From Crossaster papposus (lineage: Eukaryota > Echinodermata > Asteroidea > Velatida > Solasteridae), in NCBI GenBank assembly GCA_037893245.1, contig JBAIAA010000744.1:181963-245962 (forward strand): DNA of 64,000 nucleotides. Reading direction: 5' to 3'. The notes beneath the pieces are model-generated. The model saw nothing but the letters and a program-made list of their open reading frames with translations. It ran no database searches and was not told the origin of the DNA. The position numbers and the translations under genes were made by a program. Positions 12,511 through 35,165 of the stretch are shown here, in pieces (within the stretch, counting starts at the first letter, position 1; every line of letters starts with the position of its first letter).

Positions 12511-12711
12511 TTTCTCGCCTTATTCGCGCCCACGTTCAGACTTCAGGGCCAGGGGCAAACAGCGCGCTTTTTTTTACATACATGTTTGAAACTGATGAGG
12601 GTACTAAAACCCATCGGCCCGGGGTATGTAGTGTGGCGCAGCTCGCAGACATCCCTTAAGCTGTTACATTTTTACAATGAACTCGCGTCCGTGACCCGGA
12701 AGCGGAAACAT

Positions 12712-13139
12712 AATAGAGATATCTCTATTAAACCGAAATATAGATATCTCTATTGTTAATAGAGATATCTCTATTGTTAATAGAGATATCTCTATTGTTA
12801 ATAGAGATATCTCTATTGTTAATAGAGATATCTCTATTGTTAATAGAGATATCTCTATTACAAATAGAGATATCCCTATTACAGATAGAGATATCTCTAT
12901 TAGAAATATAGATATCTCTATTTGTAATAGAGATATCTCTATTTGTAATAGAGATATCTCTATATTTGTAAAAGAGATATCTCTATTAACAATAGAGATA
13001 TCTCTATTATTAATAGAGATATCTCTATTTCGAGTCTAATAGAGATATCTCTATTAATAATAGAGATATCTCTATTAGAAATAGAGATATCTCTATTAAC
13101 AATAGAGATATCTCTATTGTTAATAGAGATATCTCTATT
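12712..13139. repeat. Tandem array of perfect 18-bp palindromes
   Basis: About 20 copies of AATAGAGATATCTCTATT, each its own reverse complement. They are spaced by about three bases (gtt, aac, aca) to give a period near 21 bp. Several units carry single changes. The array ends where a piece of Polinton-derived sequence begins. Confidence 0.9.
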
Positions 13140-14689: not shown

Positions 14690-16350
14690 TGATTCCGTAC
14701 GGTACGGTGTTGAAATCATTCACTATTACCCTCTTACTGTACACCACGCGATAATCCTTCGTACTTGACTTAGTCAATATTTCTTTTGTCTTGCCATTTC
14801 TCACGATCTTATGGGGGTCCGATATCACGATTTTTTCGGGACCGACCCGTTTCACCATATCAACCTAAAGTTTAAGGTGAATCCCCTGACCTTACAACAT
14901 GTAATACCCGTGTCTAATCGATACGCGTAATTGTTGGGCCCGCCCGACACGAAGGTCTCTGTAAAACTATTTACCGTCTTTTGGACTTATCTCGTTAGTC
15001 AACTCGCCGAGAAAATCACCCAGAGGAGGTCTGTACTGTCCCGGTTTTTCTACGTATATTACGCTGTCGGTGTCGTAATACAAGACAGATTCCTGCAGTT
15101 TTTCGAGTACGCCGTACAGTTTGAGGCGGGCATGCGCGGTTGTAAACGCGGCAATGACTACGTTCGTTCTGGGGTTCGGGTCCACAAACTCTTCTTCCGA
15201 TTCATACCGAACTTCCACAATCTCGTGGTTGATGACATTTATATCGTGCACCACTTTATCATCGGCGAGCAAAATTTCATACAGCTTCGCGGGATCACTC
15301 AGTACTTCGACTTTGGGCATATTTATTCTCTGACCAAACTTTCCCCAGAACGAATTTAGCATCAGTTTAGCGAGAGCTCTTAGGCCGGGATTTTTCTCTA
15401 TCTTTGAAGCGTCTAACATAATCCCTTCCTGCTGAAAATATTGATCGATATATTTCGCCCTATTGGCTTCCGTTTTTACCCAGCTAGGCCATCCGGAAGC
15501 CTCGACTTTCAGTTTTAAGAAAGTGTTGATGTAGTCGGTGAATAAACCCCCCGATTGAGTCTGCGTGTCATATTGTTCCCTTTGATCAAAATGCCAAACA
15601 ACGTCAATATCGATCACTGTGTATCCTAGTTCGATGGCCTTTTCAATTTCAATAGATACCCACGTGCCTTGCAGGGTTCTTTCGGCGTCTGTATGGTGAC
15701 AAAGGGTCTGTTGCAGAGATTCTACGCAAGTGCGACATAGCGGAAAAGTCTATTTACCGCCCGAACGATAGGGTAGTAATGGGTGGTACAGGGTGGACGG
15801 CGGTAACACGCGACATTTAACGAGACCGTGGTATTCCGACACGTCTTTAAAGTTCTCCGTCACAATTTGGGGGTGGTACATCGGATAAGAACAGTACTTG
15901 TTCGTGTAGGGATACAGCGACGTATTCGATGGTTTCTTCTCCGGACGTTTGATGGAATAAACGAGTAGCATTGGTACGCCCCCCGTAAAATGCATCCCTA
16001 GGATTCAATGTTGCGCGGGGTCCGGTAATTATATCTTGCAGCGCGCGTTTCATATCCTCGCTTAAATCTTCGACTATGGATTTCCACTCGCATTCCCACA
16101 TCTCAACAAATTTGGTACACGATGATTGGAGGAACGTTTTCCTTTCTCGAGTACGCGTGTACAATTCTGACATCGGTGTCATCAACTTGTTATTCACGGT
16201 CTTCCTGTTGGGATAACACGAGACGCATCCGTGGAAGTAACAACCGTTAAACGAATAAATGATTTGATTTTCCGCGTCATAGCCGTCCACCTTGTATTTT
16301 CCGATCTGTTTTTCTCCTTTTAGACCATGGGATGAACATGAAATAGGCAT
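14690..16350 (-). pseudogene. Polinton protein-primed DNA polymerase B, palm region (fossil)
   Basis: The region encodes the polymerase half: a GKYKVDGYDAENQIIYSFNG segment near its start, the KLMLNSFWGKFGQR motif B (near 15340), and YYDTDSVIYV, motif C with both catalytic Asp (near 15060). These are the marks of the protein-primed family B polymerase of Polintons. The reading frame is not continuous. The N-terminal half lies beyond the foreign insertion at 19800-22137. Treated as a fossil; breaks are not itemised. Confidence 0.8.
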
Positions 16351-19300
16351 TCACATTTGAAGAATTGCGACCCCCCTCTAGAAGCTACCTGATATTTTCC
16401 AGAAATACAAATATGATCCTATTGAATCAGAGTATCAGGTTCGCCAGAGAGAAAAATTGCACATTAATTAGGCTTAACCAATTAAAATATCCAGCTTGAA
16501 AATAGCGCCCTCTGTTGGTCACTTCGGGAGAGGTGTGTACAAAACCTATGAGGAATTGAAATGTACACAAACAAATGGCAGGGGGCGATTTGAGCTCGTC
16601 TGGACAGAAATGACTGCTCTGTTTTTGTTTTCCCGATTTCCTGTATATTCTTTATTTAAAGAAATATTCCTAAACCAAGATTGTTATAGTTTTGTTCATG
16701 TTATCAACAGTTCAGTTTTTGTTTTCATAGTTTCTTTTCATTTTATCAACCGAATGTTTGTATCTTGCCCGTTTCTTTTTGATTTTGGGACTCCCCCAAA
16801 AAAACCAAATTAAACCCCCAAAAAACACAAGAACAGAAGAAAAGAAGAAGAAACAGTTATAAGAACAATGACAAATATTTATTATACATTATTGCAAATT
16901 TTGTATCATTATTGTTGCTATTTTGTTCACAATATCAGAACTTCATCAAAAACCTTTTTAGAATGGTATACTTTTAAACGCCATGTGATTGACAATCTTC
17001 AACCAATTGTTATCCTGAAAGATACAGCAATATTGATTATTGCTTTGTAAGTTATATCTGTGCAGTAATTGTAATTCAATGATATTTTAAAGTTAGAACA
17101 GATTTGTGTAGATGTACAGTGTAATAATTATGCTTAAATGAGTTACAGGTAAATGTAAACCAGCAGATCAGCTTCTATAAATGTGAGCAAGTGCTTTGTT
17201 TCAACTTCTAAAATTAATTTTTAAATTTTGTTATGATGCTTCAGTAAACAAAAGTATAACTGCATTTATATACCTGTAAAAACAAAAGGATTATCTTAAC
17301 CTTAGGTGAAATTGAAGGAGTGATAATTAAAATACGAAAGTAATTCACTTTTACAACACTGAACATTAGTGCCATTTTACTTATGTAAATCTTCTCAAGT
17401 TTTTTTTGTTTACATACTCCCATAAAACATGCTATGGAATAAGATAAGGCAGGTAAATTAAACCAATTTTTCTTGGATGAGCTTCTCCATTCTTGAAATG
17501 ACAGTTGATAATCTTGCTGCACAGTGTCATCATTTGCTTTCGACTTGTACTCCCTGGCTACTTTGGTGTACTTTGGTAACATGTACGGTGGTATTTTACC
17601 TCTATTGTTACTACATGTAGATCCCTATCCTGAATATCAAGTAACAGCAGCTCATCCTGCCTAATATTTGCTGCTTCAAGCAATTTCCCATCCGGCATTG
17701 TTTCGCAATTAACTAGCCGTTTTTCTTTGTTAGTATATATCTTTACAAACGATGCACTGAACAGGCAAGACATGTTTTCTGCCTGGAAGAGGTTACACGT
17801 GTTGGTCACCAGAAGTTAAGGAACTCAGACCAGCTTGAACAAATTCCACAAAGGCTCCCCATCTTGTTCGTCTGCCGTTTTCTTCTTCAGCAGCTGAAAA
17901 ATAACAACATATTACATAAATAAACTACAACAAGCTCTAATTTTAACTTGTTATCCATTTATCCACTCCCACAAAAAAACCCACTTAGGCCTACATGTAC
18001 ATGTACATTTTTTGCCTTTAACTACAAAGTAGTATGCATGTTTTCTATTATTTTACACTACATGTATTTTAATATTCCCACCCCCCCCCCCCCCCCCCCC
18101 CCCAAATTGTTTTTATGAATACTCAGTTAATTTAAAGTTAGGATACATCATTGGCGATCACCCGACGACTATATTGAATTTTTGGTAATAAAATGCAAAT
18201 ATTTGAACAATTATGGGATATCTAGCGCAATCATTTTGCTGGATGCCTAGTATCATTATTTACTAATTTTCCTAATAATTAAGTAGTAAATATTTTTGAT
18301 ATCTGCAAATGGTGTATCCTTCCTTTAACACAGAATTTATCAAGTCCTATATTTATATTTGAATCTATTTATATTTACATACAAATTACATTAAAACAGA
18401 TGCCAAATACTATTTTGTGCTGTTTTATTTATATAAGGGATTTTACTACCTTGTTCTATTTCTCTTTGGTCTGCCATTTTTTGTCTGTCTTCAGCCCGTT
18501 TGACTTGCAGAAGTGGTGGAGATGATCCCTCGGATTGTCGCTGTGTCTCCTACAGAATAATAATTTAAAACTGTTAGTACAAACTTGGCCCAACAGTAAA
18601 AGTACACCAAGAACTGGAATTAGTTTCATACTTGGCCACCACCACATTTTATAAACAATAAATAATAAATTCCTAAAAAAGGCTTAAAAAAGTGGTGACA
18701 TTTATTTACGTAGCCTTTTGGGGAGTTTGAATTTATGAAATAAAATGCGGTGGCCAAATACGGAGTTCTTTCCCCATAGACAAAATACACTATTTAGTAA
18801 GGGACACTTTGCTGTACACAGGGGTTAAGTACCCAGCATCAGTCCCCGCTTTGCATAGAATAATTACAAATTAAAAAAATGGCCACTGACTTGAAATTGA
18901 ACCTTACAACAATGATGGCCTGTAACATCATTAACAATAAATTAACCGAATATTTGCCATATTGTCCCATTCCTCCATGGCTGTCCTATAGGCTAGCCAC
19001 AATATACAAAATCATACCTTCTTTGGGTACGTCCACGGTCCTGGAAAGCACTTGAAAGAGCAATGGGATGGCTGGCGTCTTCACTTCCAAGAGGCACGGC
19101 TTGGCCTAAATGCTTTTTACCCGGTTTGCCGATGCTCGCGTGCGTGGTCTATATCAATGAACCAACTTAGTGGCAGTTTGGGGCAATTTAAAGCTTTGTC
19201 ATCGCGTACAACACTCTCTGAATTTAGCCTAGCTCTTCACGCTAAATTGTATTACTTTAGATTTGGCATAAGTTGTGTGCATACAGCAATACAAAGGACT

Positions 19301-19665
19301 TTCGTCGCCTTCATCTTCAGCTAAATTCGCGTCCGATGAAGACGCCATCTTGCACAACGTGATCGCACCGACTCCGCTGTAACAAGTCGTGACATTGGTC
19401 AACGTTGCATGAGAAACTCGTTGTGATTGGTTAGCAGTAAAAGTCATCGATTTATCTTTATATGGTTCGTGAAAATCATGGCTTTATTTCTTGAGTATTT
19501 TTCCAACTCAAATGTACTATTACTTGATAATGCGAATGTTTTAGGCTTGGCGAGTTTTAGGGTGATGAAAGACGGAATTTACACGAATTTTAAGCCCAAA
19601 TTGTAATAGCTTCTTGAGGGGGGTCACAAAAACAACGAATTTGTGAGATCATCCTGCGGCCTATT
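16321..19665 (-). mobile_element. Large TIR element, copy 1 (inserted in the Polinton polymerase)
   Basis: A 3.35-kb segment whose reverse complement recurs at 28079-32513. Inner inverted ends GACCCCCCTCTAGAAGCTA (16369) and TAGCTTCTTGAGGGGGGTC (to 19625) match except for one base. The two copies stay alike for another roughly 45 bases outside these, so the true edge may lie further out. It contains no transposase that I recognise. Instead it carries the relic of a multi-exon gene on the minus strand (about 19353 down to 17240). A 23-base C run (18081-18103) is only about 12 bases in the other copy. The very high similarity of the copies implies recent movement or duplication. Confidence 0.75.
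17240..19360 (-). pseudogene. Gene relic inside the TIR element, copy 1
   Basis: Exon-like pieces on the minus strand. One begins MASSSDANLAEDEGDESPLY and continues YAKSKVIQFSVKS (start near 19350). Another near 18456-18550 carries DNPRDHLHHFCKSNGLKTDK. A third, at about 17809-17560, reads MPDGKLLEAANIRQDELLLL followed by TIEVKYHRTCYQ. The last block, with Glu-x-x-Tyr-His-x-x-Cys, is typical of a widespread but unnamed invertebrate protein family seen near transposons. The frame is interrupted, so the gene does not look functional. It is either the element's own ORF or a captured host gene. Confidence 0.45.
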
Positions 19666-28001: not shown

Positions 28002-29318
28002 GTGTTGGCACGTATTCTTCGGCACTTTGTATCGATGTCTGCAGCCCATATTGGCCTCTTGAGGTGTCTTTTCCCGTTAATAGGCCGCAGGATGATCTCA
28101 CAAATTCGTTGTTTTTGTGACCCCCCTCAAGAAGCTATTACATTTTGGGCTTAAAATTCGTGTAAATTCCGTCTTTCATCACCCTAAAACTCGCCAAGCC
28201 TAAAACATTCGCATTATCAAGTAATAGTACATTTGAGTTGGAAAAATACTCAAGAAATAAAGCCATGATTTTCACGAACCATATAAAGATAAATCGATGA
28301 CTTTTACTGCTAACCAATCACAACGAGTTTCTCATGCAACATTGACCAATGTCACGACTTGTTACAGCGGAGTCGGTGCGATCACGTTGTGCAAGATGGC
28401 GTCTTCATCGGACGCGAATTTAGCTGAAGATGAAGGCGACGAAAGTCCTTTGTATTGCTGTATGCACACAACTTATGCCAAATCTAAAGTAATACAATTT
28501 AGCGTGAAGAGCTAGGCTAAATTCAGAGAGTGTTGTACGCGATGACAAGCTTTAAATTGCCCCAAACTGCCACTACGTTGTCGTTCAACGGTTCATTGAT
28601 ATAGACCAAGCACGCGAGCATCGGCAAACCGGGTAAGCATTTAGGCCAAGCCGTGCCTCTTGGAAGTGAAGACGCCAGCCATCCCATTGCTCTTTCAAGT
28701 GCTTTCCAGGACCGTGGACGTACCCAAAGAAGGTATGATTTTGTATATTGTGGCTAGGACAGCCATGGAGGAATGGGACAATATGGCAAATATTCGGTTA
28801 ATTTATTGTTAATGTTATGTTACAGGCCATCATTCATTGTTGTAATAAGGTTCAATTTCAAGTCAGTGGCCATTTTTTTAATTTGTATTTATTCTATGCA
28901 AAGCGGGGACTGATGCTGGGTACTTAACCCCTGTGTACAGCAAAGTGTCCCTTACTAAATAGTGTATTTTGTCTATGGGGAAAGAACTCCGTATTTGGCC
29001 ACCGCATTTTATTTCATAAATTCAAACTCCCCAAAAGGCTACAGAAATAAATGTCACCACTTTTTAAAGCCTTTTTTAGGAATTTATTATTTATTGTTTA
29101 TAAAATGTGGTGGTGGCCAAGTATGAAACTAATTCCAGTTCTTGGTGTTTTACTGTTGGGCCAAGTTTGTACTAAGTAACAGTTTTAAATTATTATTCTG
29201 TAGGAGACACAGCGACAATCCGAGGGATCATCTCTACCACTTCTGCAAGTCAAACGGGCTGAAGACAGACAAAAAATGGCAGACCAGAGAGAAATAGAAC
29301 AAGTAGTGAAATCCCTTA

Positions 29319-30412
29319 TCATCATCATCATACTATAATTCGAGCAACGTTTGTCTGTCTGTTTGTTTCGCTACTCCTCCCAAGTCCTTGGTCCGATCTC
29401 GCCCAAACTTACGGGTACGGGTACGTCACCCCATCCCCAACTTCCCTTCTTCCGGTCATATGTCAAGGTCACTGGGGTCAAAGGTCAAATGTTCGTTTTT
29501 CGCTACTCCTCCCAAGTCCTTGGTCCGATCTCGCCCAAACTTACGGGTACGGGTACGTCACCCCATCCCCAACTTCCCTTCTTCCGGTCATATGTCAAGG
29601 TCACTGGGGTCAAAGGTCAAATGTTCGTTTTTCGCTACTCCTCCCAAGTCCTTGGTCCGATCTCGCCCAAACTTACGGGTACGGGTACGTCACCCCATCC
29701 CCAACTTCCCTTCTTCCGGTCATATGTCAAGGTCACTGGGGTCAAAGGTCAAATGTTCGTTTTTCGCTACTCCTCCCAAGTCCTTGGTCCGATCTCGCCC
29801 AAACTTACGGGTACGGGTACGTCACCCCATCCCCAACTTCCCTTCTTCCGGTCATATGTCAAGGTCACTGGGGTCAAAGGTCAAATGTTCGTTTTTCGCT
29901 ACTCCTCCCAAGTCCTTGGTCCGATCTCGCCCAAACTTACGGGTACGGGTACGTCACCCCATCCCCAACTTCCCTTCTTCCGGTCATATGTCAAGGTCAC
30001 TGGGGTCAAAGGTCAAATGTTCGTTTTTCGCTACTCCTCCCAAGTCCTTGGTCCGATCTCGCCCAAACTTACGGGTACGGGTACGTCACCCCATCCCCAA
30101 CTTCCCTTCTTCCGGTCATATGTCAGGGTCACTGGGGTCAAAGGTCAAATGTTCGTTTTTCGCTACTCCTCCCAAGTCCTTGGTCCGATCTCGCCCAAAC
30201 TTACGGGTACGGGTACGTCACCCCATCCCCAACTTCCCTTCTTCCGGTCATATGTCAAGGTCACTGGGGTCAAAGGTCAAATGTTCGTTTTTCGCTACTC
30301 CTCCCAAGTCCTTGGTCCGATCTCGCCCAAACTTACGGGTACGGGTACGTCACCCCATCCCCAACTTCCCTTTTTCCGGTCATATATTACACCCACGGGT
30401 ACTTTTGACTAG
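29319..30412 (+). mobile_element. Helitron-like non-autonomous element with eight 132-bp repeats
   Basis: It begins TCATCATCATCATACTATAA and ends TTTTGACTAG, inserted exactly between A and T with no target duplication. The 5' TC, the 3' CTAG and the A^T target are the Helitron hallmarks. A small stem (ACCC-AC-GGGT, 30391-30400) precedes the CTAG by about 8 bases. The empty site is preserved in copy 1 of the host element (between 18433 and 18434, minus strand CCCTTA^TATAAATAAA), which fixes both edges. The core is a minisatellite. Tandem-core Helitron relatives (DINE/HINE and the bivalve 'pearl' elements) have the same architecture. Confidence 0.78.
29367..30390 (+). repeat. 132-bp minisatellite, eight nearly identical units
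   Basis: Unit starts TTCGCTACTCCTCCCAAGTC; starts are spaced exactly 132 bases (29367, 29499, ...). Only two or three single-base changes are visible across eight units. Because 132 is a multiple of three, two plus-strand frames stay open for over 350 codons and repeat every 44 residues. They are not regarded as genes. The last unit is cut short by the 3' end of the Helitron-like element. Confidence 0.95.
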
Positions 30413-32513
30413 TATAAATAAAACAGCACAAAATAGCATTTGGCATCTGCTTAATGTAATTTGTATGTAAATATAAATAGATTCAAATATAAATATAGGA
30501 CTTGATGAATTCTGTGTTAAAGGAAGGATACACCATTTGCAGATATTAAAAATATTTACTACTTAATTATTAGGAAAATATCTTACTCATTGGAAAGTAA
30601 ATAATGATACTAGGCATCCAGCAAAATGATTGCGCTAGATATCCCATAATTGTTCAAATATTTGCATTTTATTACCAAAAATTCAATATAGTCGTCGGGT
30701 GATCGCCAATGATGTATCCTAACTTTAAATTAACTGAGTATTCATAAAAACAATTGGGTGGGGGGGGGGGGAATATTAAAATACATGCAGTGTAAAATAA
30801 TAGAAAACATGCATACTACTTTGTAGTTAAAGGCAAAAAATGTACATGTAAGTGGTTTTTTTTGTGGGAGTGGATAAATGGATAACAAGTTAAAATTAGA
30901 GCTTGTTGTAGTTTATTTATGTAATATGTTGTTATTTTTAAGCTGCTGAAATAGAAAACGGCAGACGAACAAGATGGGGAGCCTTTGTGGAATTTGTTCA
31001 AGCTGGTCTGAGTTCCTTAAACTTCTGGTGACCAACACGTGTAACCTCTTCCAGGCAGAAAACATGTCTTGCCTGTTCAGTGCACCGTTTGTAAAGATAT
31101 ACTAACAAAGAAAAACGGCTAGTTAATTGCGAAACAATGCCGGATGGGAAATTGCTTGAAGCAGCAAATATTAGGCAGGATGAGCTGCTGTTACTTGATA
31201 TTCAGGATAGGGATCTACATGTAGTAACAATAGAGGTAAAATACCACCGTACATGTTACCAAAGTACACCAAAGTAGCCAGGGAGTACAAGTCGAAAGCA
31301 AATGATGACACTGTGCAGCAAGATTATCAACTGTCATTTCAAGAATGGAGAAGCTCATCCAAGGAAAATTGGTTTAATTTACCTGCCTTATCTTATTCCA
31401 TAGCATGTTTTATGGGAGTATGTAAACAAAAAAAACTTGAGAAGATTTACATAAGTAAAATGGCACTAATGTTCAGTGTCGTAAAAGTGAATTACTTTCG
31501 TATTTTAATTATCACTCCTTCAATTTCACCTCAGGTTAAGATAATCCTTTTGTTTTTACAGGTATATAAATGCAGTTATAATTTTGTTTACTGAAGCATC
31601 ATAACAAAATTTAAAAATTAATTTTAGAAGTTGAAACAAAGCACTTGCTCACATTTATAGAAGCTGATGTGCTGGTTTACATTTACCTGTAACTCATTTA
31701 AGCATAATTATTACACTGTACATCTACACAAATCTGTTCTAACTTTAAAATATCATTGAATTACAATTACTGCACAGATATAACTTACAAAGCAATAATC
31801 AATATTGCTGTATCTTTCAGGATAACAATTGGTTGAAGATTGTCAATCACATGGCGTTTACAAGTATACCATTCTAAAAAGGTTTTTGATGAAGTTCTGA
31901 TATTGTGAATAAAATAGCAAAAATAATGATACAAAATTTGCAATAATGTATAATAAATATTTGTCATTGTTCTTATAACCGTTTCTTCTTCTTTTCTTCT
32001 GTTCTTGTGTTTTTGGGGGTTTAATTTGTTTTTTTGGGGGGAGTCCCAAAATCAAAAAGAAACAGGCAAGATACAAACATTCGGTTGATAAAATGAAAAG
32101 AAACTATGAAAACAAAAACTGAACTGTTGATAACATGAACAAAACTATAACAATCTTGGTTTAGGAATATTTCTTTAAATAAAGAATATACAGGAAATCG
32201 GGAAAACAAAAACAGAGCAGTCATTTCTGTCCAGACGAGCTCAAATCGCCCCCTGCCATTTGTTTGTGTACATTTCAATTCCTCATAGGTTTTGTACACA
32301 CCTCTCCCGAAGTGACCAACAGAGGGCGCTATTTTCAAGCTGGATATTTTAATTGGTTGAGCCTAATTAATGTGCAATTTTTCTCTCTGTCGAACCTGAT
32401 ATTCTGATTCAATAGGATCATATTTGTATTTCTGGAAAATATCAGGTAGCTTCTAGAGGGGGGTCACAATTCTTCAAATGTGAATGCCTATTTCATGTTC
32501 ATCCCATGGTCTA

Positions 32514-32664
32514 TAAGTGATAGGTTCAATGCTCTGGTTGCCGAGATTCAGCTTCCTAAAATGCATGTGTCTCAGTATGTTGTGAAGTACATGTAAGGCC
32601 TTTGGAATGAGGATCCTGTTGGCCAGCTGTGCGATTGGTCATTACTGAAACTGTATCGCTTTGC
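32514..32664. other. Short spacer between TIR elements
   Basis: 151 bases with a short open stretch on the plus strand (RFNALVAEIQLPKMHVSQYV) ending at a TAA. It may be a piece of another gene or repeat; nothing more can be said. Confidence 0.3.
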
Positions 32665-34807: not shown

Positions 34808-35165
34808 CGGGTCGAACATATTCGTCCGTCGGACGTAATGGGTCGGACATAATCGTCCGTCGGACGTAATGGGTCGGACCTAATCGTCCGTCGGACGTAA
34901 TGGGTCGGACCTAATCGTCCGTCGGACGTAATGGGTCGGACCTAATCGTCCGTCGGAGGTAATTGGTCGGACATAATCGTCCGTCGGACGTAATGGGTCG
35001 GACATAATCGTCTGTCGGACGTAATGGGTCGGATATAATTGTCTGTCGAATGTAATGGGTCGGACATAATCGTCTGTCGGACGTAATGGGTCGGACATAA
35101 TCGTCTGTCGGACGTAATGGGTCGGACACAATCGTCCGTCGGACGTAATGGGTCGGACATAATTG
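34808..35165. repeat. 31-bp tandem repeat (CGTCGGACGTAATGGGTCGG type)
   Basis: About 11 copies of a 31-base unit containing cgtccgtcggacgtaatggg and tcggacataat; differences between units are mostly at cgtccg/cgtctg and cataat/cctaat. The three minus-strand frames are open across it because the unit lacks stops there, so they are not called genes. Confidence 0.9.

Follow-up and report, generated by a model that had tools for sequence, protein, structure and literature searches.

A tandem-core Helitron in the sea star Crossaster papposus, its putative gene-bearing partner and its target site

In a 64,000-nucleotide stretch of the genome of the sea star Crossaster papposus (assembly GCA_037893245.1, contig JBAIAA010000744.1, here C744, positions 181,963 to 245,962; hereafter the window), two inverted copies of one host repeat differ by a block of 1094 bp that consists largely of a 132-bp tandem repeat. 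What kind of mobile element is this block, what does it recognize in its target, and where does its satellite-like core come from? Following the block and its relatives through the 1.02-Gb genome, we conclude that it is very probably a young, non-autonomous member of a canonical Helitron family, with a RepHel-bearing partner that shares its ends, a preference for A^TN6AA targets (^, point of insertion) and a core derived from the partner's own ends.

The block, its empty site and its family

The block (29319-30412) begins with TC, ends with CTAG and lies between A and T without a target duplication. Host copy 2, which is filled, reads CCCTTA/TCATCATC...TTGACTAG/TATAAATAAAAC. The empty host copy 1, read on the other strand as CCCTTATATAAATAAAAC, is unbroken across 18433/18434, so that the joined site is CCCTTA^TATAAATAA. 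When the block is removed, about 1 kb of joined flanks aligns with copy 1 at 98.2% identity (970 of 988 ungapped columns); the same alignment has 82 gap columns, overhanging ends included, and none of them falls at the junction. Over their whole extent the two inverted host copies pair in segments at 96–100% identity. Searched genome-wide, the joined host site of 24 nt has 159 matches (≤3 mismatches; control 2); the insertion is therefore the derived state, and a deletion scar in copy 1 is unlikely. An earlier preliminary description, made from the letters of the window, had proposed most of this: a base-exact Helitron-type integration, an intact empty site with a clean A^T junction in one of two inverted host copies, and a recent insertion carrying an eight-unit array of nearly identical 132-bp repeats. 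All of these proposals are borne out, the array having a period of 132 bp, 7.7 copies and 99% matches (29366-30385), and the age being a relative one.

The ends of the block are common throughout the genome, as the preliminary description had led us to ask. The 28-nt 3' end is found at 396 places, which may include inner, doubled 3' ends, and the 32-nt 5' end at 314 (both with ≤3 mismatches; control 0 for each); the last 19 nt occur exactly at 316 places. From 92 loci, many of them overlapping, we parsed 58 different copies, each complete with its two ends and the adjoining flanks. These copies are 167–2207 bp long, with a RepHel copy of 5700 bp and one copy, L057, that is shortened by the parse. 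The 5' terminus is TC in 56 of the 58, the exceptions (L077 and L080) having altered 5' ends; the 3' terminus is CTAG, in keeping with the CTRR of canonical Helitrons, in 57, with L057 stopping at an inner CTAA; and the next base, +1, is T in 57. The 5' end takes the form of an (ATC)n microsatellite of 0–195 bp, and a short palindrome, ACCCACGGGT, is present near the 3' end.

Paralogous empty sites were accepted for five insertions: that of the window, L008 (three empty paralogues), L083, L018 (three loci, 76–80% identical) and L032 (one). Spanning matches at L007, L016, L022, L025, L028, L033, L068 and L073 were excluded from this count as gapped, doubtful or the element itself. The core units depart from their consensus by 13 substitutions in 10,296 bases (78 units), and the flanks of the two host copies differ by 1.8%. 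Two exact-match scans of viral contigs found no pieces of the family.

Copies of the family are also found in unusual arrangements. Under one search pattern, two exact head-to-tail junctions, CTAG/TCATC, were matched genome-wide, at C248:4676-4709 and C409:1776401-1776434; they read CTAG/TCATCATACT and bear on rolling-circle transposition only indirectly. The head-to-tail partners at L007 differ in unit number. At L073 (C74:56300-59000), a family copy is centred in the palindrome GCTTTTTCGCAAAA^TTGCGAAAAAGC.

RepHel-bearing copies and the makeup of the core

We describe the copies by six modules, A to F, the RepHel copy having the order A-B-C-D ... RepHel ... E-F. In a copy on contig C31 (L027/L055), the last part of a helicase lies between the tandem core and the shared 3' end. 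A search with this helicase fragment returned nine places at 98–100% identity over its full length (150 of 369 candidates scored), and for two of the nine, on C1408 and C359, a Rep-domain search (150 of 273 candidates scored) places a match ∼2.5 kb away on the same strand. The C1408 copy, L089, is a Rep/helicase element sharing the 3' end, of the kind whose existence the preliminary description had raised. It has the family 5' end with an identical module A, one B-C-D unit, a frame of 1460 amino acids that is open from stop to stop, and an E-F 3' end whose last 60 bp are the family consensus. Pfam assigns Helitron_like_N, PIF1, Pif1_2B and AAA models to this frame (PF14214 and PF05970 among the matches), and identifies no endonuclease domain in it, the scan having covered the frame and not the sequence upstream. 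The closest relative of solved structure is Helraiser (7lcc), aligning over residues 53–1459 at E=4.7e-251, with the stretches that bear the HUH and two-tyrosine motifs inside the alignment. The L089 element is probably autonomous. In the C359 copy the frame is split into parts of 680 and 790 amino acids, and its 3' end is read as L091. Shortened copies with both ends and a partial helicase are L027/L055, L090 and L092. Among the candidates scored, numerous other matches to the Rep domain fall within open frames exceeding 3000 amino acids, which points to a Helitron- or Helentron-like class of far greater length.

The tandem core combines sequences from both ends of the partner: in the 132-bp unit, B and D, which come from a 138-bp 5'-subterminal repeat, are joined to E, which comes from the 3' end. 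Module E opens with an (ACGGGT)n stretch that the 3' ends of L089, L090, L091 and L092 lack. B-C-D and hybrid units occur together in 36 of the 58 copies, typically as A-(B-C-D)-(B-E-D)n-B-E-F, and 17 copies, including the RepHel and helicase-tail copies, have B-C-D units without a hybrid junction. Only hybrid units are present in four, among them the window copy, and L033, at 167 bp, has neither kind and reads A-B-E-F.

E or F leads back into D through five different junctions, all of them confined to the final 27 nt of the element and to ∼12 nt of D. In a further, sixth kind, present in 15 of the 58 copies, the 3' end itself is doubled. Every one of the 29 copies that hold at least two hybrid junctions has a single junction type in its array (21, 4, 3 and 1 copies by type). 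The fifth type comes from one parsed copy, L024, and from the unparsed L034, and what stays untyped is one junction (L057) and, in a coarser parse, six units. For hybrid units of the main type, divergence is 0.15% within copies and 0.26% between them (78 units of exactly 132 bp, 22 copies). Because each array has one junction type and there are several types overall, we read the arrays as having probably been founded repeatedly from the element's own ends and then grown. Sequenced Helraiser circles have precise end junctions in 49% of cases and lack them in about half, according to the parts of the study drawn on here (PMC5876387), and by analogy such imprecise junctions could supply the joins seen in this family. 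A core repeat that derives from the two ends of a copy with genes is not described in the text portions consulted of seven papers (PMC4778049, PMC7492417, PMC13286980, PMC5876387, PMC2575219, PMC6544945 and PMC4067079).

The target site

Among 56 distinct right flanks, +1 is T in all 56 and positions +8 and +9 are AA in 54, against an AA background of 10.4% (binomial 9e-51). AA is missing at L024 and at the inner junction of the head-to-tail dimer L007. Information content is 2.0 bits at +1 and 1.87 bits at each of +8 and +9, and only 0.10–0.22 at +4 to +6. Genome-wide, TN6AA follows 280 of the 316 exact 3' ends. Both RepHel-bearing copies carry the AA (L089, TAAGAACAA; L091, TTATAATAA), and for every one of the five insertions it also stands in one or more of the empty paralogues.

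As a control we used another Helitron family of the same genome, reached via its helicase (C186, C409 and C97; 45% identity). This family ends in CCCCGGGTGACCGCCTAG, followed by T in the three copies read. TN6AA occurs at 45 of its 477 places, all of which are counted irrespective of the base at +1, and 31 of the 45 share one identical flank. Set beside 280 of 316, this indicates that the AA preference is a property of the family described here, with the reservation that neither the 316 nor the 477 places are all independent insertions. On C146 (3588403-4452939), ten listed copies have the common flank TTTATTAAA, as though copying of a host repeat, and not insertion one by one, had multiplied them. 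In a sister family (L093-L097, ∼53% identical in the helicase tail), no 3' end was found within the 901 bases taken at each of five loci. A guide-like pairing between TTTT in the 3' end (-10 to -7) and the AA at +8/+9 was considered and rejected: the end of the control family would then predict GT, which is not seen in the three copies read.

As far as the parts consulted go, the literature on Helitron insertion reports the A^T target and, in part, 3' flanks rich in A and T (PMC4778049, PMC2575219), flanks that are T-rich or TT for Helentrons, and no flank consensus beyond the A for maize Helitrons. A fixed AA downstream is not stated in those text portions of the seven papers listed above.

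These observations can be assembled into a possible sequence of events. The partner's Rep domain would nick the element at A^TC, one strand would be copied off, and its 3' CTAG end would be joined to a T whose strand has AA eight and nine bases further on. Derivatives would first lose RepHel through an internal deletion that joins B to E. Their 3' end could then be linked again to D, either through an imprecise joining of ends or through a replication switch, and the resulting D-B-E unit would be multiplied into an array. We consider it rather probable that target recognition is split, as A^T(N6)AA, and absent in this form from the second family, so that extended specificity downstream of the nick can evolve, and that cores arise time and again when the 3' end is wrongly joined to the element's own 5' subterminal repeat. 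The AA in the target and the building of the core repeat from the ends of a gene-bearing relative are what goes beyond the preliminary description.

Alternative explanations, genomic setting and implications

The best solved relative, Helraiser/Helibat of bats, resembles the family in its TC/CTAG ends, A^T target and RepHel protein. The pearl elements of bivalves (CvE, MgE) have a tandem core with a microsatellite, a likeness to our family that is one of general description and not of sequence. They are treated beside Cg_HINE in the part of PMC7492417 consulted. HINE, DINE-1 and Cg_HINE elements share short ends, a microsatellite, a satellite-like tandem core and high copy number with the family, but differ in inserting at T^T or oligo-T and in being partnered by Helentrons, and are described as having subterminal inverted repeats (parts consulted of PMC4067079 and PMC7492417). 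The preliminary description had placed the block with these tandem-core elements, and the common plan, including the lack of a target duplication, would allow it to be a non-autonomous Helentron of the HINE, DINE-1 or pearl type. Its A^T target, TC and CTAG termini and 1460-amino-acid RepHel partner, which shares its ends, has Helraiser as nearest solved relative and lacks a Pfam endonuclease domain, make that assignment very improbable, and we do not retain the label. The Xuan-Feng Helitrons of wheat likewise comprise gene-bearing and gene-less members inserted at A^T, with a preference for AT only, in contrast to A^TN6AA here, as far as the text consulted states it (PMC13286980). Exact excision or deletion of the block from copy 1, whose site would then not be ancestral, could not be told from gain by the two copies alone; with the joined site at 159 genome places and empty paralogues for four other insertions, we give this explanation almost no weight. 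It is equally hard to credit that the AA is an artefact of the AT-rich flanks reported for Helitron 3' ends (PMC4778049 and PMC2575219, in part), or is element sequence, given 1.87 bits at +8/+9 beyond six variable bases that include the weakly informative +4 to +6, the presence of AA in empty paralogues (in two of the three at L008 and in fewer than half at L083) and the control value of 45 of 477.

For the core, independent uptake of unrelated repeats has been proposed for some oyster HINEs (PMC7492417, in the part available), and the array might similarly be a captured satellite. The RepHel copy has B, C and D on its 5' side and E and F on its 3' side, and the unit is made of such pieces, which renders capture very improbable. 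A far more serious contender, to which we assign a little less than an even chance, is a single join followed by ordinary tandem duplication and by slippage or unequal exchange, in which transposition intermediates would play no part. Slippage yields homogeneous arrays, B-C-D units are also tandem in many copies, and later growth of an array by this route is compatible with both the clustered joins and the circle data. Against it as the whole explanation, the five joins cluster in the last 27 nt and ∼12 nt of D, which points to the element end as the joined substrate, and about half of Helraiser circles lack precise end junctions (PMC5876387, as above).

Several observations weigh against our interpretation of a young canonical Helitron with an extended target and repeatedly founded cores. 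A hairpin near the 3' end is usual in most Helitron families, without being defining, and folding gives it no support here: shuffled sequences fold at least equally well in 172 of 200 cases for the last 39 nt and in 185 of 200 for the last 62 nt. The A at -1 is partly a product of how the 5' microsatellite was parsed, and its host origin is demonstrated only where empty sites were accepted, in five insertions. The L083 site is spanned by seven paralogous units, of which five keep A^T and two have it altered. TN6AA is lacking after 36 of the 316 genomic 3' ends, of which L024 and the L007 dimer junction alone were looked at, and AA is missing from one of the three empty paralogues of L008 and from most of those of L083; these paralogues may have changed since, or may never have had it. 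The main alternative to repeated founding is that the junction variants could stem from one ancestral join followed by deletions. Finally, no movement has been observed: the evidence is for youth only, and the preliminary suggestion that such elements are active in this genome holds as regards their youth and is not demonstrated as regards activity.

The features of the insertion and its host repeat are collected in Table 1. Between 13664 and 28001, the window has two frames matching DNA polymerase B, which stand on both sides of host repeat copy 1, together with matches to an integrase core, an OTU protease and, below the cut-off, the poxvirus A32 protein, a set of genes that we would call Polinton/Maverick-like. 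Three further arrays are present: a 21-bp repeat of ∼20 copies at 12711-13139, whose unit TAATAGAGATATCTCTATTAT is itself nearly palindromic; a 31-bp repeat of 11.5 copies with 93% matches at 34809-35163; and a 28-kb array of an 86-bp satellite (∼325 copies, 87% matches) that occupies 36031-64000 and reaches the right edge of the window.

Table 1. Features of the inserted element, its empty site and its host repeat in the window
Feature	Position	Strand	Remark
Complete copy of the non-autonomous Helitron, TC...CTAG	29319..30412	+	1094 bp; grammar A-(BED)7-BEF
5' terminus TC(ATC)3	29319..29329	+	parsed microsatellite 0–195 bp among 58 copies
Module A, conserved 5' subterminal sequence	29330..29357	+	identical in RepHel copy L089
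Tandem core, 7.7 copies of 132-bp B-E-D unit	29366..30385	+	combines 5' and 3' subterminal sequences of the RepHel copy
Module F, 3' terminus ending GACTAG	30386..30412	+	common to the RepHel copy
Target side, T at +1 and AA at +8/+9 (TATAAATAA)	30413..30421	+	present in the unfilled host copy as well
Empty site in inverted host copy 1, A^T	18433..18434	-	A^T on the minus strand
Host repeat copy 1	16317..19665	-	between two stretches matching DNA polymerase B
Host repeat copy 2	28079..32517	+	holds the Helitron

The origin of satellite-like cores in rolling-circle transposons is not settled in the parts of the literature covered here. This genome holds, side by side, a source with genes, derivatives shortened by deletion, a form with a single unit and arrays that differ in their joins, which makes the order of the steps testable. 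Helitrons are usually said to require A^T only. A near-invariant second target contact, beside a family of the same genome that lacks it, makes it possible to search for the region of the transposase, or of the element end, that recognizes the target. If this interpretation is true, evolution can extend the specificity of Helitron transposases to target bases downstream of the nick.
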